Assembly (NCBI GenBank): GCA_037481695.1
Contig: JBBFLE010000006.1
Coordinates: 62,001-126,000, forward strand
DNA: 64,000 nt
Reading direction: 5' to 3'
From: a bacterium
GTDB taxonomy: Bacteria > Desulfobacterota > Desulfocorpusculales > Desulfocorpusculum
This document shows positions 30,775 to 37,794 of this stretch, one piece after another. Made by a program: the position numbers and the translations under genes. The notes beneath the pieces are model-generated. The model was not told the origin of the DNA, made no database searches, and was given only the letters and a program-made list of their open reading frames with translations. Within the stretch, counting starts at the first letter, position 1; each line of letters begins with the position of its first letter.

Positions 30775-31353
30775 ATGGCTGAGCGCTACGAGGTCAGGTT
30801 TAGCGGCACGGGTGGGCAGGGGGTAGTACTGGCAGGCATGATCCTTGCCGAGGCAGCAGGGCTCTTCGGAGGAAAGCATGTGGTACAAACGGTCAGCTAT
30901 GGCCCGCAGGTGAGGGGTGGTAACAGCAATGCCGAGGTTGTGATCAGTGAAGAGGAGATAGACTACCCAAGGCCCCTTGGCCTGGACCTCCTGGTGCCTT
31001 TCACCCAGCAGGGTTGCGACGAAGGGGCCAGGCTTCTGAAACCCAAGGGTGTTGTGCTTCTGGATCCTGAACTGGTGAGCCAGATGCCGGAGGGGTGGGT
31101 GGCATCTCTTCCCCTCAGGAAGACGGCCCTGGAAGCCACGGGAAGGGCCCAGATGGCAAATGTGGTCTCCCTGGGGGCAGTTGTAGTGCTTTGCCCCCAT
31201 GTGGACCTGGAGGCCATGAGCGCTGCGATAAAGGAGAGGGCACCCAGGGGATTGGAAGAAGTTTTCATCAAGGCCCTAAACGCTGGTTACGAACTGGCCG
31301 ATGCCATGCGTGCCAAGATTTCCTTTAGGGAGGCTGCCTCCCCTGAGGATTAA
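30775..31353 (+). CDS. korC: 2-oxoacid:ferredoxin oxidoreductase, gamma subunit
   Basis: 192 aa from ATG 30775; a TTG at 30754 overlapping korB is possible but poorer. The domain III pattern is present: SGTGGQGVVLAGMILAEAA, SYGPQVRGGNSNAEVV. It binds CoA in characterised homologues. It is the last gene of korDABC. Confidence 0.93.
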   Translation: MAERYEVRFSGTGGQGVVLAGMILAEAAGLFGGKHVVQTVSYGPQVRGGNSNAEVVISEEEIDYPRPLGLDLLVPFTQQGCDEGARLLKPKGVVLLDPELVSQMPEGWVASLPLRKTALEATGRAQMANVVSLGAVVVLCPHVDLEAMSAAIKERAPRGLEEVFIKALNAGYELADAMRAKISFREAASPED

Positions 31354-31374
31354 ATTATGATGTTAACCCCTGGC

Positions 31375-31395
31375 CCAAGGCCTGCAGAGGCTTGG
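31375..31395 (+). other. Hairpin after korC
   Basis: CCAAGGCCT and AGGCTTGG pair with one bulged G around a GCAG loop, 22 nt after the korC stop. It is not followed by a T-run, so it may be a weak or factor-assisted terminator. Confidence 0.3.
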
Positions 31396-31443
31396 CAATC
31401 TCCCAGGTAATAAGGCTCACCTGGCCTCCAAGGTCTCGCCGAG

Positions 31444-31478
31444 AAAAACCGGTTGCGGCCGTTGTGGACGCAAGACCG
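31444..31478 (-). terminator. Rho-independent terminator of the zinc-uptake operon
   Basis: On the minus strand, CGGT-CT-TGCG (31478-31469) pairs with CGCAACCG (31457-31450), leaving a 2-nt bulge and an 11-nt loop. GTTTTTC follows directly. It lies about 35 nt past the znuB stop. Confidence 0.6.
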
Positions 31479-31512
31479 CTCTTCGGTGTGCATCACGACA
31501 CGGGTGCACTCC

Positions 31513-32400
31513 TCAATCTGTCTGATGTCGGCCCGGCCATGGACTAGGCCGTCGGGTCACCAAGCCGCTGGTCCAAATGAGCGCCAGCCCCCCAGTCAGA
31601 AGCCCCACAGTCATCTGAGCTGACGGGGAATCCAAGTGATTCGCAAGGACGAATCCGGGAATACTCACCCCCAGGAACACCAAGGGGGCCACCACGAACA
31701 TGGACCAGACCTCGCGGCACAGCCTCTTGGCCAGGAGTGCAGGAAGGACCAGGCATCCGAAGGTATAGAGCATCCCAGCGGAACGGATGGAGAGGCCCAC
31801 GGTCAACCCGAGCCATGCGCACACCGCAGCAGACCAGATTCCCGTCCGCATCCCAAGGGCTTCGGCCATGGGGCGGTCCATGGAAAGGAGCAAAAGCGGG
31901 CGGTGAAAGAATACGAGTATCCAAGCGGTCATTATCGCAAGGGAACCGAACACCCAGACGTCCGCCGCCGTAGCCCCGATGATGCTCGAGGAGGCCAGGC
32001 GCTGGATCTCGTCCAACCCGTGTGGGCTGTGAGCCAGGATCAAGCTGGAAATACTCCCTGAAAACAAAAACACCCATCCGGTTACCGCCTCGTGGCTTTC
32101 CCCTCCTGAGTCGTTCCCGCGGGCTGTAACCAGGGCCGCGCCCACGGAAAAGGCCACCGCCATGGCGGACAAGAACAAGTCTGACCGGGACCAGTGTTGG
32201 GCATGGTGCCCCAGCATGTCTCCCAGCCAAAGAGCCCACGCAATACCTAGTCCCGACGCCTGGGAGACCGCCGCGCCGATGAAGATCTGATCCCGCGCCA
32301 CCACTATGACGCCCACTTGAGAAAGAAGCAACCCCATGGCCCATCCCGCCAGATAGGTGTTCTGAAACAGACCCCACGAAGAGAGGAAATCGTGGATCAT
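31513..32400 (-). CDS. znuB: Zinc/manganese ABC transporter permease (ZnuB-like)
   Basis: 295 aa from ATG 32400, overlapping the ATPase stop (ATGA). About eight hydrophobic helices in the ABC-3 pattern (QVGVIVVARDQIFIGAAVSQ; GMRTGIWSAAVCAWLG). It forms the membrane channel of a metal importer with the ATPase and binding protein encoded upstream. Arginine is often CGN, unlike the AGG-rich core genes of the window. Confidence 0.9.
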   Translation of the reverse strand: MIHDFLSSWGLFQNTYLAGWAMGLLLSQVGVIVVARDQIFIGAAVSQASGLGIAWALWLGDMLGHHAQHWSRSDLFLSAMAVAFSVGAALVTARGNDSGGESHEAVTGWVFLFSGSISSLILAHSPHGLDEIQRLASSSIIGATAADVWVFGSLAIMTAWILVFFHRPLLLLSMDRPMAEALGMRTGIWSAAVCAWLGLTVGLSIRSAGMLYTFGCLVLPALLAKRLCREVWSMFVVAPLVFLGVSIPGFVLANHLDSPSAQMTVGLLTGGLALIWTSGLVTRRPSPWPGRHQTD

Positions 32401-33170
32401 GGGGCCACCTCCGGCGGGCCTACGCGCACGCACACGCTCCCCGAGGGTTCCAGCGTCACTGCCACCGGCACCCCGTACGCGGAGGCGAGTACAGCCGGCC
32501 CCAGCGTCTCGCTAACGGGCCCTGCAGTCACCCGGCCGCCCTTGAATACCGCCGCATGGGTCCCGAATCGCATGGCGATTCCCAGGTCGTGGGTCACAAA
32601 CAGGATTGTCAGTCCGTCCACTCGGTGAAGGTCTGCCACACATCTCAGGAATGCGTCCTCGGTGGACAGGTCCATTCCGTTGGTCGCCTCATCCAGGATG
32701 AGAAGGCTCGGTCGGCGAATCAGAGCCCTGGCCACCAGGGCCCGCTGCCGTTGTCCCCCGGAGAGGGAAGAGTAGTCGCGACCGATCATCTCCTCGAGCC
32801 CGACCCTGCCCAGAGCCCACCGAAGGTCCTCTTCCCGTTCCTTGCGGTTTCTTCTGAGGCCCACCAGCCCCAGCGAGACGAACTCCCGAACCGTGGTGGG
32901 CACTGCCAGATTCAAGTCGCAGCGCTGGGGCACAAACCCGACGCGCTGCCGACCAGCCCGCTCGGGATGGCACCACAGAGTGCCCCCAGTGGGGGATAGA
33001 AGTCCAAGGATGGCCCTCAGAAGCGTGGTCTTTCCCTCGCCGTTGGGCCCCACAAGGAACCAGAACTCCCCAGACCTTACCTCCATGCAGACCTCGCGCA
33101 GAACCAGCCTTTGGCCATAGCCCAGAGACAGGTCCGTGGCCCTAAGCATGACCCTCTCATCCTGGATCAT
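32397..33170 (-). CDS. znuC: Zinc/manganese ABC transporter ATP-binding protein (ZnuC-like)
   Basis: 257 aa from ATG 33170 (GGAGG site); a second ATG at 33149 is possible. Walker A GPNGEGKTTLL has Glu where Ser/Ala is usual; signature LSGGQRQRALVARAL; Walker B LLILDEATNGMD; H-loop FVTHDLG. It powers the importer. The gene uses many CGN arginine codons. Confidence 0.92.
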   Translation of the reverse strand: MIQDERVMLRATDLSLGYGQRLVLREVCMEVRSGEFWFLVGPNGEGKTTLLRAILGLLSPTGGTLWCHPERAGRQRVGFVPQRCDLNLAVPTTVREFVSLGLVGLRRNRKEREEDLRWALGRVGLEEMIGRDYSSLSGGQRQRALVARALIRRPSLLILDEATNGMDLSTEDAFLRCVADLHRVDGLTILFVTHDLGIAMRFGTHAAVFKGGRVTAGPVSETLGPAVLASAYGVPVAVTLEPSGSVCVRVGPPEVAP

Positions 33171-33282
33171 CCATATGCCTCCACCAGAAAACCATGAGCA
33201 ACCGCCGCCGCGATCGGCCGCACAAGTTTCCTGAGATCGGGATCCTCCTGAAGGAAGGACAGGGAACCCCCGGACATTCACC

Positions 33283-34335
33283 TCATGGCCTCAGCGCGCT
33301 GAGAACCTCTTGCACATTGTGGTCCACCATGCCCAGGTAGTCCCTGGCCTCTGGCACCGACTCCACCTGGTGGGCCATTCGCGCAATCCGGGCACCCGTC
33401 CGTTCGGCCAAGAACCGGGCGTGGCGCGTATCGAAGTACGGCACCGTGAGAATCACCTTCACCCCTTGGGCCTTCATGGCTTGGATCAATTCCCCTAGAT
33501 GCTTTGTCGTGGGAGAGATCCCTGGTTTGGGTTCCATGAAACCAACGACACGGATCCCGAACCGTCGAGCGAAGTAAGGCCAAAGGTTATGATCCGCCAC
33601 GACCTTTACACCAAAGTGGGGCATCATGGCGCCAAGCCAGCCGCCTAGGAGATCGGTCTGTCCTTGCTCGGCCAGAAATGGCTGTAGTTTGCCATGCTCG
33701 AACAGGATGGCCAGTTTCTCGAAGTCATACCGCGCCGCCAGTCTTTCTCCCACCAAAGCCTTGGCCACTTTATCCCGAAAGGAGGAATATCGTTCGTGGA
33801 ACAACGCGCGTTCCTGGGGACGAATCTCGCTCAATCGGTCCCGGATGAGCCTTGCCACGGCAAGGCCATTGATGGGGTCCAGAAGGTAATGTGGATTGCC
33901 CCCCGGGTGAACGTCACCCATAGAGCGGTCCACGTGTCCGGTGGGCACCTCCAACTGCGAGATTGCTGACGACGCATCCACAAACCCTCTGGCGCCCGGG
34001 ACCACTTTGGAATTCCGCGCGTTCTGTATGATGAGCGGAGCCCACCCTGACTCCAGATCCAGTCCAGTCTGAACGAAGATGTCCGCCAAGCTCAAGGCCT
34101 TGACAAAACTTGGCTTGGGCTCCAGGAAGTGAGGATCCTCGCTTCCCTTCCCGAAGATCGTGAGAGAGACCCGCTCCCCGCCGATTTCTTGAACCAGGCT
34201 GCCTAGATCCGGGGTGGTGACGCACACGCGCACGGGCTCTCCTTTGGCCTGTACTGGCAGGAGGCAGGCTGCCACCGCACAGACGAATCTCAAGGCCTTT
34301 CCTGAGAGGTTTCTGAGTCCATTGCTTTTGATCAT
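33283..34335 (-). CDS. znuA: Periplasmic zinc/manganese-binding protein (ZnuA-like)
   Basis: 350 aa. A signal peptide is about 1-32 (LLPVQAKG). Cluster A-I family features: TTPDLGSLVQEIGGE, EDPHFLEPKPSF (first His ligand), GGNPHYLLDPING (second His), HNLWPYFARRFG and a C-terminal VPYFDTRHAR. The His-rich flexible loop of many ZnuA proteins is nearly absent. The metal is most likely zinc, given the Fur/Zur gene and His-rich outer-membrane protein next to it. Confidence 0.9.
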   Translation of the reverse strand: MIKSNGLRNLSGKALRFVCAVAACLLPVQAKGEPVRVCVTTPDLGSLVQEIGGERVSLTIFGKGSEDPHFLEPKPSFVKALSLADIFVQTGLDLESGWAPLIIQNARNSKVVPGARGFVDASSAISQLEVPTGHVDRSMGDVHPGGNPHYLLDPINGLAVARLIRDRLSEIRPQERALFHERYSSFRDKVAKALVGERLAARYDFEKLAILFEHGKLQPFLAEQGQTDLLGGWLGAMMPHFGVKVVADHNLWPYFARRFGIRVVGFMEPKPGISPTTKHLGELIQAMKAQGVKVILTVPYFDTRHARFLAERTGARIARMAHQVESVPEARDYLGMVDHNVQEVLSALRP

Positions 34336-34454
34336 ACTCTTCTCCTTTTCTGATCGTTTCTGGGAGGATCCATGGCTTCAGCCACATGGGGGCCAACCTG
34401 GCGCAACATCTCGACCAAAGGGCCCAGCAGTCGTCACCCCAGAAAAGTGCCTCC

Positions 34455-35966
34455 TCAGTACTGGTGCACCGGGTGGGCCCCCAGCAGGAATTCGAACCCG
34501 AACCAGACGGAGTGGGCCTCTCGGCCTTTGAGGTGGCTAGCGCGGTCGTAGTTGTACTGAAACCTGAGGCGAGAGAACTCCGTCGGTTGCCAGAGCAAAA
34601 GTGGCGAGAGGCGATGGCGGTCGTCCCGAAAAGGGTCCTGGGATCTGGCGATGAATTCCTCCTCCTCCATGCTCCGTCCGATTCCCGAGGCGAACTCGTA
34701 GCGCAGTCCAGCCGCCCACGGCCGCCGGATCCCCCAGAGGAGCTGCGTATAAAACCCCCAATCCCGCAGGGTGCTGGCAGGTATGCGCTCCCCGTCATGC
34801 GCAAATCCGTCCGCATGGAATGCCCTATACATGACCTCGCTTTGCCAGGTCAGGAAGGGCCACCCCCGTGCCGCATCCCGCGGACGCCATTTGAGCGTGA
34901 GGTCGGCTCCATAGATCCAAGTGCGGCCATCCGTACCCGAGTTGTTGGGGCCGTATAGGCCGGAAAGACCCAGGCGTGCAGAAACGGTATGGCTCACATC
35001 AAAGGCGTTGATCCAGCGGCCCGAGTAAACCAGATCCTTGAGGGCGCGCACGTCCCTGTCCAGGATGGGCCTGCCCCCGATCCCTTCCTCGTGTTCCTCT
35101 CCCCCGCCGTGATGGTGATGGCCTAGTCCCTCGCCTAGGAAGCTGGGCATAGTGCTGCCCCGCGGGTCCTGCACTCCCAGGCGGACCTCGCTGGACCAGG
35201 GGAGGGGCGTGAGCCATCCCAGCCGGATGCCCGTGTTTCGCATGCCATCACCTCCAAACAGACGGGTGTTGATGACAGGTTGATCGATCCAGGCCCAGGA
35301 ATGGGGGTGCGTCGGGTTGATGAGACCGAATTCCGTGAGATAGTATCCGGCCTTGGCCTGGAGGCCCCATGGCAGGGTGGTGGTAGTGGCGAAGGCCTCC
35401 TCCAGCTCCAACCCCTCTTCCGTCACCACCAGATGGGACTCAGCGGTGAAATAGGGATCCACGGCCCCGAGCATTGACAGTTCCAGTTGTTGAAAGGTGA
35501 AACCCCTTCGCTTGGGGTCATGAGCGCCCCCCTGAAGGATCTCAATCTGCTCGGAGCGTTTGGTCGAAGTGCCTCCCGCAACGTTCACGACCGCCGATAG
35601 GTCCATGAGCCGAAGGGTCGCTCCGCCAATTTGTTTGGAGAGAATGTCGCCTGCCTCCGAAGAGGACGCTTGGATCTTAGCCGACTGCGCCTCCTTTACT
35701 GCTTTGTCTAGGTCAGAAGCGGCGGATGTGGCCGCATTGTTCTCCCGCACTTTGCCCTGGAGTTCTGCGAGCTGCTTTTCCAGCGCCTCGATGCGGCGAT
35801 CTTTCTCCTCCAAGGCCTGTCGAAACTCTGCTTGGACTTTTTGGATCTCCTGCTTCAGGGATTCAATGTCCGAGACCCGGGATTCCGCGTATCCGATTGC
35901 GACGCCCAGGTACACACATGCAAACACCGCCATTATAGCCACCACAAGCGCTTGTGTCCGTGACAT
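34455..35966 (-). CDS. Predicted outer-membrane barrel protein with His-rich loop
   Basis: 503 aa from ATG 35966 (GGAGG about 10 nt upstream). The signal peptide is about 1-28. A coiled coil follows at about 30-75 (QALEEKDRRIEALEKQLAEL), as in trimeric porins, then a low-complexity linker and a C-terminal part of alternating aromatic beta-strands ending near FGFEFLLGA. A loop near 285-300 reads GHHHHGGGEEHEE, a likely metal site. Being upstream of znuA in the same operon, it probably passes zinc across the outer membrane or concentrates it. It is not a TonB-dependent receptor: no plug domain was seen. Confidence 0.75.
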   Translation of the reverse strand: MSRTQALVVAIMAVFACVYLGVAIGYAESRVSDIESLKQEIQKVQAEFRQALEEKDRRIEALEKQLAELQGKVRENNAATSAASDLDKAVKEAQSAKIQASSSEAGDILSKQIGGATLRLMDLSAVVNVAGGTSTKRSEQIEILQGGAHDPKRRGFTFQQLELSMLGAVDPYFTAESHLVVTEEGLELEEAFATTTTLPWGLQAKAGYYLTEFGLINPTHPHSWAWIDQPVINTRLFGGDGMRNTGIRLGWLTPLPWSSEVRLGVQDPRGSTMPSFLGEGLGHHHHGGGEEHEEGIGGRPILDRDVRALKDLVYSGRWINAFDVSHTVSARLGLSGLYGPNNSGTDGRTWIYGADLTLKWRPRDAARGWPFLTWQSEVMYRAFHADGFAHDGERIPASTLRDWGFYTQLLWGIRRPWAAGLRYEFASGIGRSMEEEEFIARSQDPFRDDRHRLSPLLLWQPTEFSRLRFQYNYDRASHLKGREAHSVWFGFEFLLGAHPVHQY

Positions 35967-36073
35967 GATCTTGCCCTCCTCTCCCATATGGCAACAAGAC
36001 TCCTGCCGTGGGCCGCCCGGACAATTTTCGCCGTTCGCCGCAGGAGCACCTTGGTTTAGTGGCGTATTGGGAA

Positions 36074-36475
36074 TTAAAATGGGGGAGGGCCTCTTGGCAC
36101 CGACACACAGGAGTCAAAAACAGCCTTGCGCGAAACTGAAATCTGGCAATGGGCTTTCACTCGGAGCGCTGGGAGCCAACTGATGACCATTGTTCCAGCG
36201 GATAGTAGGTTCTGGCTCTGGAGCGCTGCCCTGCAAATGGAGCATCTCGAAGGGTCGTGACCGTGTTCCCGATCACTCCGCGCTGCTGAAAGAGTTTCGC
36301 CGTTGCCATGTTGCGAGCAGATGGAAATGTACGATGTCCAACTCTGAGGATGAGCGTAGCTAGCGACCTCTAGCTCGTGGAGTAAAGGCAAGGCTAGGTG
36401 GGCCATCACGATAAAAAGCCCGAATGCTGATTTCCAGGAGCGAGGACTTAGGAATCCTTTGACAAGCAAACACAT
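36074..36475 (-). CDS. Small Cys/His-rich membrane or exported protein at the head of the zinc operon
   Basis: 133 aa from ATG 36475, with only a weak ribosome site; the frame is open further to 36652, so the start is uncertain. One hydrophobic segment is at about 13-32 (SAFGLFIVMAHLALPLLHE). Then SICSQHG and HGHDPSRCSICRAALQS, and a C-terminus ending VPRGPPPF. The HDPxxCxxCR motif and the R-x-PP end recall DUF2946-type proteins linked with metal genes; this is recollection, not a search. It probably belongs to the zinc operon and may bind zinc. Confidence 0.55.
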   Translation of the reverse strand: MCLLVKGFLSPRSWKSAFGLFIVMAHLALPLLHELEVASYAHPQSWTSYISICSQHGNGETLSAARSDREHGHDPSRCSICRAALQSQNLLSAGTMVISWLPALRVKAHCQISVSRKAVFDSCVSVPRGPPPF

Positions 36476-36619
36476 GCCACTAAACCTGAACGAAAGATCT
36501 TCCGAGTGTGCACAATGACACGGCTCCCAATGTGGCACCAAAGCCTGTTGGCTAAGGGCTAAAGCCACACCTAAAATTGGCACCTCATTGGATATTTTTG
36601 GAAGAGCCGAGCCAGTGAT

Positions 36620-36635
36620 TGCAAACGCAGTTGCA
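36620..36635. promoter_or_regulatory. Zur/Fur-type operator candidate 1
   Basis: The sequence TGCAAACGCAGTTGCA is a 16-bp site with TGCAA/TTGCA arms. It shares form and outer bases with the second site 51 bp downstream. It lies between the zinc operon and the divergent Fur-family gene. Confidence 0.5.
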
Positions 36636-36670
36636 GTATACGTTGTGGCCACTCAGAGATCAAGCTTTGA

Positions 36671-36686
36671 TGCAAAAGGTTTTGCA
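36671..36686. promoter_or_regulatory. Zur/Fur-type operator candidate 2 (palindrome)
   Basis: TGCAAAAGGTTTTGCA has perfect 7-bp arms around a 2-bp centre, 42 bp before the Fur-family ATG. Its position fits autoregulation of that gene and control of the divergent zinc operon. Size and symmetry suit a Fur-family dimer; the motif itself was not matched to a database. Confidence 0.6.
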
Positions 36687-36728
36687 AAAGATGAAGGGTT
36701 GGATATCTTGTGGGAAAAGGAGGCTGCG

Positions 36729-37100
36729 ATGAAACGCAACACATCTCAGAGGGCAGCCATTGAACAGGTCTTCATCCGTGAGAGTCGACCCTTGGCTGTT
36801 GAGGATGTCTTGAAGATCGGTCGCACTATCGTTCAGTCCTTGAATCAGGCGACGGTCTATCGGAATCTGAAGCTTTTAACGCAAGCAGGGTGGCTCGCCA
36901 AGGTCAACCACCCGCTCATCGGGACCCTGTATGAGAGAACTGGCAAAGACCACCACCACCACTTCCATTGCCGAATCTGTCGGAAGGTGTTCGACGTTCC
37001 CGGCTGTGCCCTGAACGATAAAGACGCCTTGTCGAGGGGGTTTGTCACGGAGAATCACGAGGTCTTTCTTTTTGGGATCTGCCCGTCCTGCGCGACTTAA
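36729..37100 (+). CDS. Fur-family metal-responsive repressor, probably Zur
   Basis: 123 aa from ATG 36729 with AAGGAGG at good spacing. A winged helix is in the first 80 residues ([26 protein letters not shown]). The regulatory site is [19 protein letters not shown] and the C-terminus has ICPSC, giving two CxxC pairs for structural zinc. It is short, and the divergent znu genes make zinc the likely co-repressor; Fur or PerR roles are less likely by context. Confidence 0.85.
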
Positions 37101-37416
37101 GAGATCCCCATGTCATAGAGGGGGAGGTTCTTTGGATCTGCCGTCTGCACGAGGCAACGCCAAGGTCTCTTTCAGTGGCGTGGAGTACATATCCGGTTTT
37201 GTCCAAGCTCATATTGTCCCCCATACCAATGCCACGCGCAGGGATGGCTGCCTCCATAAAAAAAGCGAAAAGTGCTGAATTTGGGCCAGGCCAGATTTGG
37301 CCAATTAGCCTGGCTGAGAAGAAGTTTCCTCCTATGGTGGTGAGCCTGAGGTAAACCTGCCCGAGGGCCAGGCGACAAATGGGTTAAAGGTGGTTCTTTG
37401 AGACCAGGAGGATCAA
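37101..37416. other. Intergenic stretch between the Fur-family and glycine-zipper genes
   Basis: No gene is well supported. A 36-codon plus-strand frame starting MAASIKKAKSAEFGPG is open but has no clear ribosome site. The A/T balance and lack of repeats suggest ordinary spacer at the edge of the zinc island. Confidence 0.4.
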
Positions 37417-37794
37417 ATGAAAACAAATGGGATTGCCAGGAAGTGGCGTGACACATGGGCAAAGAGCCTTTCCAAGGGGCTTTTCAGAGGCGGGATGGTT
37501 TTGGCATTTCTGGGGCTGGCTCTGGGGCTTGTGGGATGTGCTGCCACAGGAGGAGCCGGAGGTGCACTTCTGGGCTATGGAATAACGGGTAATGCCAGGG
37601 GAGCTGCCCTGGGGGCCGGGGCGGGAATGCTTGCAGGTTCCCTTTTTGACGCAGGGGTCATAAGGCCCCATCCTTATTCATACGGTCCTCCGGCCTATTA
37701 CGGGCCTGCACCTGGAAGATGGGTTTACGTACCCGGATACTGGGATGCTTATGGGCGTTGGATCCCACCTCATCGTTACTGGGCGCCTTACTGA
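37417..37794 (+). CDS. Glycine-zipper lipoprotein
   Basis: 125 aa with an AGGAGG site. A long N-region leads to a lipobox LGLVGC at about residue 41, so residues after it form a lipoprotein. The mature part starts with a Gly/Ala zipper (GGAGGALLGYGITG; GAALGAGAGMLAG). The C-terminus is rich in Tyr/Pro/Trp, with W-V-Y-V-P-G-Y-W and RWIPPHRYW, as in YXWG/PGxW-type envelope proteins. It is probably an outer-membrane-attached envelope protein of unknown role and ends at a strong terminator. Confidence 0.8.
   Translation: MKTNGIARKWRDTWAKSLSKGLFRGGMVLAFLGLALGLVGCAATGGAGGALLGYGITGNARGAALGAGAGMLAGSLFDAGVIRPHPYSYGPPAYYGPAPGRWVYVPGYWDAYGRWIPPHRYWAPY

Follow-up and report, generated by a model that had tools for sequence, protein, structure and literature searches.

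The closest described relatives of the system reported here are CruR and CutF, short open reading frames (ORFs) that head metal operons and in which a Cys pair is followed, about 45 residues on, by a proline motif close to the C-terminus (PMC9426467, PMC9973294); here and below, statements on these and other cited papers refer to their running text. In CruR of Bordetella pertussis, a DUF2946 protein, the spacing is 45 residues, and its authors point out that neither copper nor zinc has a known riboswitch (PMC9426467). Of the arrest motifs examined in published work, RAPP and RGPP proved the most robust (PMC12992588), and the structural basis of the RAPP arrest has been published (PMC10951233). 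Here we analysed a window, that is, the whole 64,000-nucleotide stretch of contig JBBFLE010000006.1 (positions 62,001 to 126,000; assembly GCA_037481695.1, Desulfocorpusculum), in which a leader ORF of this kind precedes the genes of a porin and of a ZnuABC-type ATP-binding cassette (ABC) importer. We lean slightly towards the reading that, across several bacterial phyla, a zinc-sensing nascent peptide acts after transcription has started and controls both an ABC importer and the zinc porin encoded with it, a member of a new, histidine-gated family that works without TonB.

The most interesting part of the locus is the small leader ORF. The initial annotation of the window had correctly placed it between the porin and fur, listing it as a small Cys/His protein, and had overlooked it as a regulator; a metal-sensing upstream ORF (uORF) with a C-terminal arrest motif accounts for it better. 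Its CSIC is followed by 46 residues and then by RGPP, two residues before the stop codon. The ORF has the size and place of a CruR/CutF-type leader, being shorter than 150 residues, on the same strand as the metal genes and less than 1000 nucleotides upstream of them; its motif is of the R-A/G-PP type and falls within the last 15 residues, and its CxxC precedes it by about the 45 residues looked for. The N-terminal hydrophobic segment reaches a maximal 15-residue hydropathy of 2.24. Like CruR, the leader ORF opens an operon for metal uptake at the outer membrane, has a putative export-signal-like start, combines CxxC, about 45 residues and a C-terminal R-x-PP, and is followed by more than 100 nucleotides before the next gene (162 in CruR, 107 here). 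CruR, however, is a copper sensor ahead of a TonB-dependent transporter (PMC9426467), whereas the window has a porin and ZnuACB, and the leader ORF has a more His-rich site and RGPP instead of RAPP. With CutF of Rhodobacter capsulatus it shares the features of a small, putatively exported ORF that has a metal site and a C-terminal proline motif and lies upstream of metal genes, and it passes the length, PP-motif and intergenic-distance filters of the CutF paper. The difference is that CutF carries CxxxC and activates a copper oxidase via a stem-loop (PMC9973294), whereas the window ORF has CxxC and no unusual stem-loop was found behind it.

In many loci the porin is preceded by short ORFs that combine a His-rich stretch with C..C and carry RAPP at the C-terminus. 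In 51 of 103 loci a strict uORF pattern (CxxC, 30 to 62 residues, R-x-PP near the end) matched immediately ahead of the porin (in one of them, L059, in the wrong frame); elsewhere it matched 10 times among 11,984 ORFs, six times in a displaced uORF belonging to one of these operons and four times in an unrelated ORF. With a looser automated pattern, a uORF preceded the porin in 69 of the 103 loci (70 raw matches, L114 being dropped as false), and by eye about 11 further loci have a variant or displaced one (L035, L037, L050-L052, L054, L068, L094, L100, L115 and L125); L065, L089 and L122 have no upstream sequence to inspect. The spacing between the Cys site and the motif was 43 to 46 residues in 56 of the 61 uORF rows scored (46 in the window), and 48 of the 61 have at least two His within the 25 residues ahead of the C..C/H site. 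The C-terminal motifs were RAPP (49), RGPP (11), RSPP (7) and RPPP (2). The uORFs themselves are very divergent, with 10-31% identity to the window leader ORF. Note that in L058-L063 (Methylomirabilota) CxxH replaces CxxC and the RAPP end is retained, a natural variant of the metal site, and that the Sulfurovum ORF before the porin (L137, 3842-4198) has HHH and CxxC and ends in HAPPYTFS, not RAPP.

The porin-znu operon is not confined to this organism. Of 198 genomes sampled from the phylum, 23 encode the barrel protein. One of these is the genome of the window, and the surroundings of the other 22 were analysed; in a scan of a genome collection, at least 531 of 587 pattern matches were confirmed as relatives, and the named loci are the best 80 of them. 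The idea of a private island of this genome was therefore rejected. Neighbours were identified with profiles derived from the genes of the window, ZnuA being sought downstream, on the same strand and within 2.5 kb. ZnuA followed the porin homologue in 77 of the 80 named loci and in 17 of the 22 phylum loci, which makes 94 of 102 relatives overall. ZnuB was then present in 72 named and 16 phylum loci, and ZnuC was found downstream in only 51 and 6, respectively; contig ends account for some of the missing downstream znu genes. The named hosts, mainly metagenome bins, are labelled Thermodesulfobacteriota, Myxococcota, Methylomirabilota, Planctomycetota, Pseudomonadota, Verrucomicrobiota, Binatota, Fidelibacterota and Nitrospirota. 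On the Sulfurovum plasmid (L137) the porin is annotated as a hypothetical protein and lies upstream of a zinc-binding protein and a metal permease.

Some of these loci deviate in their layout. A second form of the operon, with the porin, ZnuA and ZnuB and no adjacent ATPase gene, occurs in L040, L041, L042, L066, L067, L101 and others, among them L137 and L136 (Vibrio). L035 and L068, which encode an identical porin protein, have two complete znu modules in tandem, with the porin between them and a uORF heading the first, behind a Fur-family gene. In the porin tree, L069, from a contig titled Klebsiella pneumoniae, clusters tightly with a bin of Deltaproteobacteria and is probably a mislabelled bin.

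The porin was modelled with AlphaFold from 80 aligned sequences. The model (mean predicted local distance difference test score, pLDDT, 89.4) shows 16 long strands behind an N-terminal coiled coil. The earlier proposal of a coiled-coil, porin-like outer-membrane protein tied to ZnuABC is supported. Its top structure matches in VIA-align were OprP (Z 28.6) and OprO (Z 28.5), with OmpF-type porins and DcaP lower, at Z near 24; this ranking holds within the structure list of VIA-align, and families outside the list may be closer. The predicted fold is OprP-like; in the Pfam search, Porin_O_P (PF07396) was not among the 25 of 26 families listed for the window porin, and it matched 2 of 23 relatives at E up to 0.1. 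No Pfam family scored above its cut-off on the window porin, and neither its sequence alone nor a sequence profile matched any solved structure convincingly. OprP and OprO, the phosphate- and polyphosphate-selective porins, share with it the 16 strands of the closest solved folds and 12-14% identity; the window porin differs in its long coiled coil and in having His in place of the arginine ladder named in the title of the OprP entry. ZnuD-type receptors serve the same outer-membrane step of zinc uptake, but TonB-dependent receptors are 22-strand barrels with a plug, whereas the window porin has 16 strands and a coiled coil and no plug family was found in it. The remark that this component resembles no TonB receptor is supported; the TonB barrel profile gave weak matches in 5 of 23 relatives (best E 2.3e-4).

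An H-x-H (H227, H229) is invariant in all 103 aligned porin sequences, down to about 22% identity, and E197 is conserved in 102, H505 in 100 and H508 in 99 of them (the His are numbered from the first ATG of the ORF, at 35987; the model residue is that number minus 7). In the model, H227 and H229 sit between strands 5 and 6, which we take to be the position of the constriction loop L3 in 16-strand porins, and the C-terminal H505/H508 pair comes after the last strand, in a low-confidence tail. The H-x-H on the predicted constriction loop may represent the fixed His filter of a zinc path. The initial annotation had instead pointed to a His loop. The stretch exists (GHHHHGGGEEHEE, beginning at residue 289), its GHHHH lying between strands 7 and 8 of the model, but it belongs to a variable loop that is His-rich, by eye, in only about 5 of 22 same-phylum relatives. 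As a defining feature it was rejected, failing the annotation's own test of whether homologues lack the loop, and zinc handling is better supported by the invariant H-x-H and the other conserved residues.

Several observations weigh against a zinc-sensing nascent peptide. About 20 porin loci, many of them in Planctomycetota, have no uORF, and neither has a Vibrio copy of the porin. The metal site varies, being CxxH in Methylomirabilota and CxxS in some Gammaproteobacteria. The leader ORF aligns full-length with DUF2946 (PF11162) at 16.2 bits (E 0.018), against a gathering cut-off of 23.7, and is not filed as a member of this Pfam family; the equivalent ORF of L118 scores 25.0 bits, and DUF2946 matches 22 of 37 aligned uORFs at E up to 0.1 (row L037 in the wrong frame). 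The 107-nucleotide intergenic RNA folds no better than its shuffles (z 0.47), so a CutF-like stable stem-loop is not supported there, and the excess of C over G near the uORF end is modest. Among the upstream regions of 64 uORFs, searched with box patterns, no common Zur-like operator was found, and the TGCAA-N6-TTGCA palindrome of the window is not shared by the others. Finally, the published uORFs of the CruR/CutF type sense copper. A link of such uORFs to zinc was not found in the running text of the literature covered, CruR and CutF papers included, and the word zinc is absent from the main text of the RAPP/RGPP survey, whose survey figure may hold a zinc group (PMC12992588).

Copper sensing is in fact the chief rival to zinc sensing: the uORF could be a genuine arrest peptide that senses copper, or the general metal or redox state, and thereby sets the level of the zinc operon. 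All the tested relatives (CruR, CutF) do answer to copper through Cys pairs, yet ZnuA-type genes lie behind the uORF in those 94 of 102 relatives and the metal site is usually His-rich, which together suggest that the sensed metal would be zinc; we regard the copper reading as unlikely. More improbable still, in our view, is that the small ORF simply encodes a chaperone or metal-binding protein of the periplasm and that its RGPP end has no regulatory role. A signal-like segment and a His/Cys site would fit a chaperone too, as CutF was initially considered to be, but little else than the fixed spacing and the C-terminal R-x-PP is conserved in these divergent ORFs, the small ORF is always ahead of the porin, and RAPP-type motifs are generally excluded from proteomes (PMC12992588). 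With regard to the barrel, its predicted fold is the common 16-strand porin fold, and it might be a general or anion porin that is co-transcribed with ZnuABC and whose histidines are structural, not zinc-selective. We consider this somewhat unlikely, since the H-x-H is invariant even in very distant sequences and occupies the predicted L3 position, the nearest structures are the substrate-selective OprP and OprO, and the gene keeps a fixed place beside znuA.

Transfer of the operon had been proposed from its arginine codons, and these do differ from the flanks: AGG accounts for 19/124 (15%) in the island genes and for 491/1165 (42%) in the other window ORFs used, and CGG for 37/124 (30%) and 104/1165 (9%), respectively (chi-square p = 5e-17 over six codons; gene calling followed a crude longest-ORF rule, with the small ORF assigned to the flank). 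The porin was not found in two other genomes of the same family. Moreover, the window's genome has a second znuACB, without porin, on another contig (G000:C5, read as L147 5598-8051); it is shared with one of these two genomes, at about 68-70% DNA identity, and the ZnuA it encodes has only 26% identity with the island ZnuA. Taken together, the atypical codons, the absence of the porin from same-family genomes and the distinct family znuACB support acquisition by transfer. A quick tree unites the window porin with two bins, whose labels are Thermodesulfobacteriota and Myxococcota (SH-like approximate likelihood-ratio test, SH-aLRT, 100), and since these partners carry two phylum labels the tree does not single out a donor.

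Table 1. Features of the zinc-uptake locus (positions in the window).
Feature	Position	Strand	Description
Leader ORF	36475-36074	minus	133 aa + stop; signal-like hydrophobic segment, HGHDPSRCSIC metal site, RGPP
Intergenic region, leader ORF to porin	36073-35967	minus	107 nt; Shine-Dalgarno AGGAGGG before ATG 35966
Porin	35966-34455	minus	503 aa; N-terminal coiled coil, 16-strand barrel (predicted)
ZnuA-family zinc-binding protein	34335-33283	minus	PF01297, 150.5 bits
ZnuC-family ABC ATPase	33281-32397	minus	PF00005, 100.2 bits
ZnuB-family ABC permease	32433-31513	minus	PF00950, 80.7 bits
Fur-family regulator	36729-37100	plus, divergent from operon	123 aa from ATG 36729; PF01475, 58.5 bits

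The features of the locus are collected in Table 1. For the porin we favour the start behind the Shine-Dalgarno sequence as the likely one, rather than 35987. The ZnuABC set was confirmed, with adjacent genes for ZnuA, permease and ATPase that match all three Pfam families of the ZnuABC/AztABC zinc importers; the difference from these is that the scores lie below the NCBIfam cut-offs of the named equivalogs, the best match of ZnuC being AztA (154.8 bits, below the cut-off of that model). The window ZnuA aligns with solved zinc-binding proteins and has a His at the place of their third His. The initial annotation was right about a Fur-family gene, which is a divergent neighbour and does not stand at the end of the unit; it scores 19 bits against the NCBIfam Zur cut-off of 167 and can be assigned to the Fur superfamily only. 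The terminator said to end the unit was not recovered: between ZnuB and the convergent gene there is a hairpin without U-run, and no site resembling an intrinsic terminator was found. No Rfam element was found across 31000-37500.

We think it probable that the locus is a horizontally acquired, two-layer zinc-uptake operon, in which a zinc porin and an ABC importer are under nascent-peptide control. The 16-strand OprP/OprO-like porin would pass zinc over the outer membrane without TonB, with the invariant H-x-H as selectivity site, and the C-terminal H-x-x-H, near the periplasmic end, may hand the metal to ZnuA for onward import by ZnuB and ZnuC. The leader ORF would act as a nascent sensor of the CruR/CutF type. 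Under zinc scarcity, ribosomes would stall at its C-terminal RGPP, with expression of the genes downstream; zinc bound to the emerging His/CxxC site would relieve the arrest, and downstream expression would drop, either through Rho-dependent termination, by analogy with CruR, or, on the CutF model, through altered access to the ribosome-binding site of the porin. A further layer, repression of transcription, probably comes from the Fur-family neighbour.

A ribosomal metal-sensor peptide has been described for copper, and a zinc counterpart was not found in the running text of the literature covered. If our reading is correct, zinc would gain a ribosome-based sensor, and control by arrest peptides would extend from copper (and the suspected nickel and cobalt) to zinc. 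Little is understood of how zinc passes the outer membrane independently of TonB, and the porin family, with its clear predicted selectivity motif, would provide a dedicated outer-membrane zinc channel.

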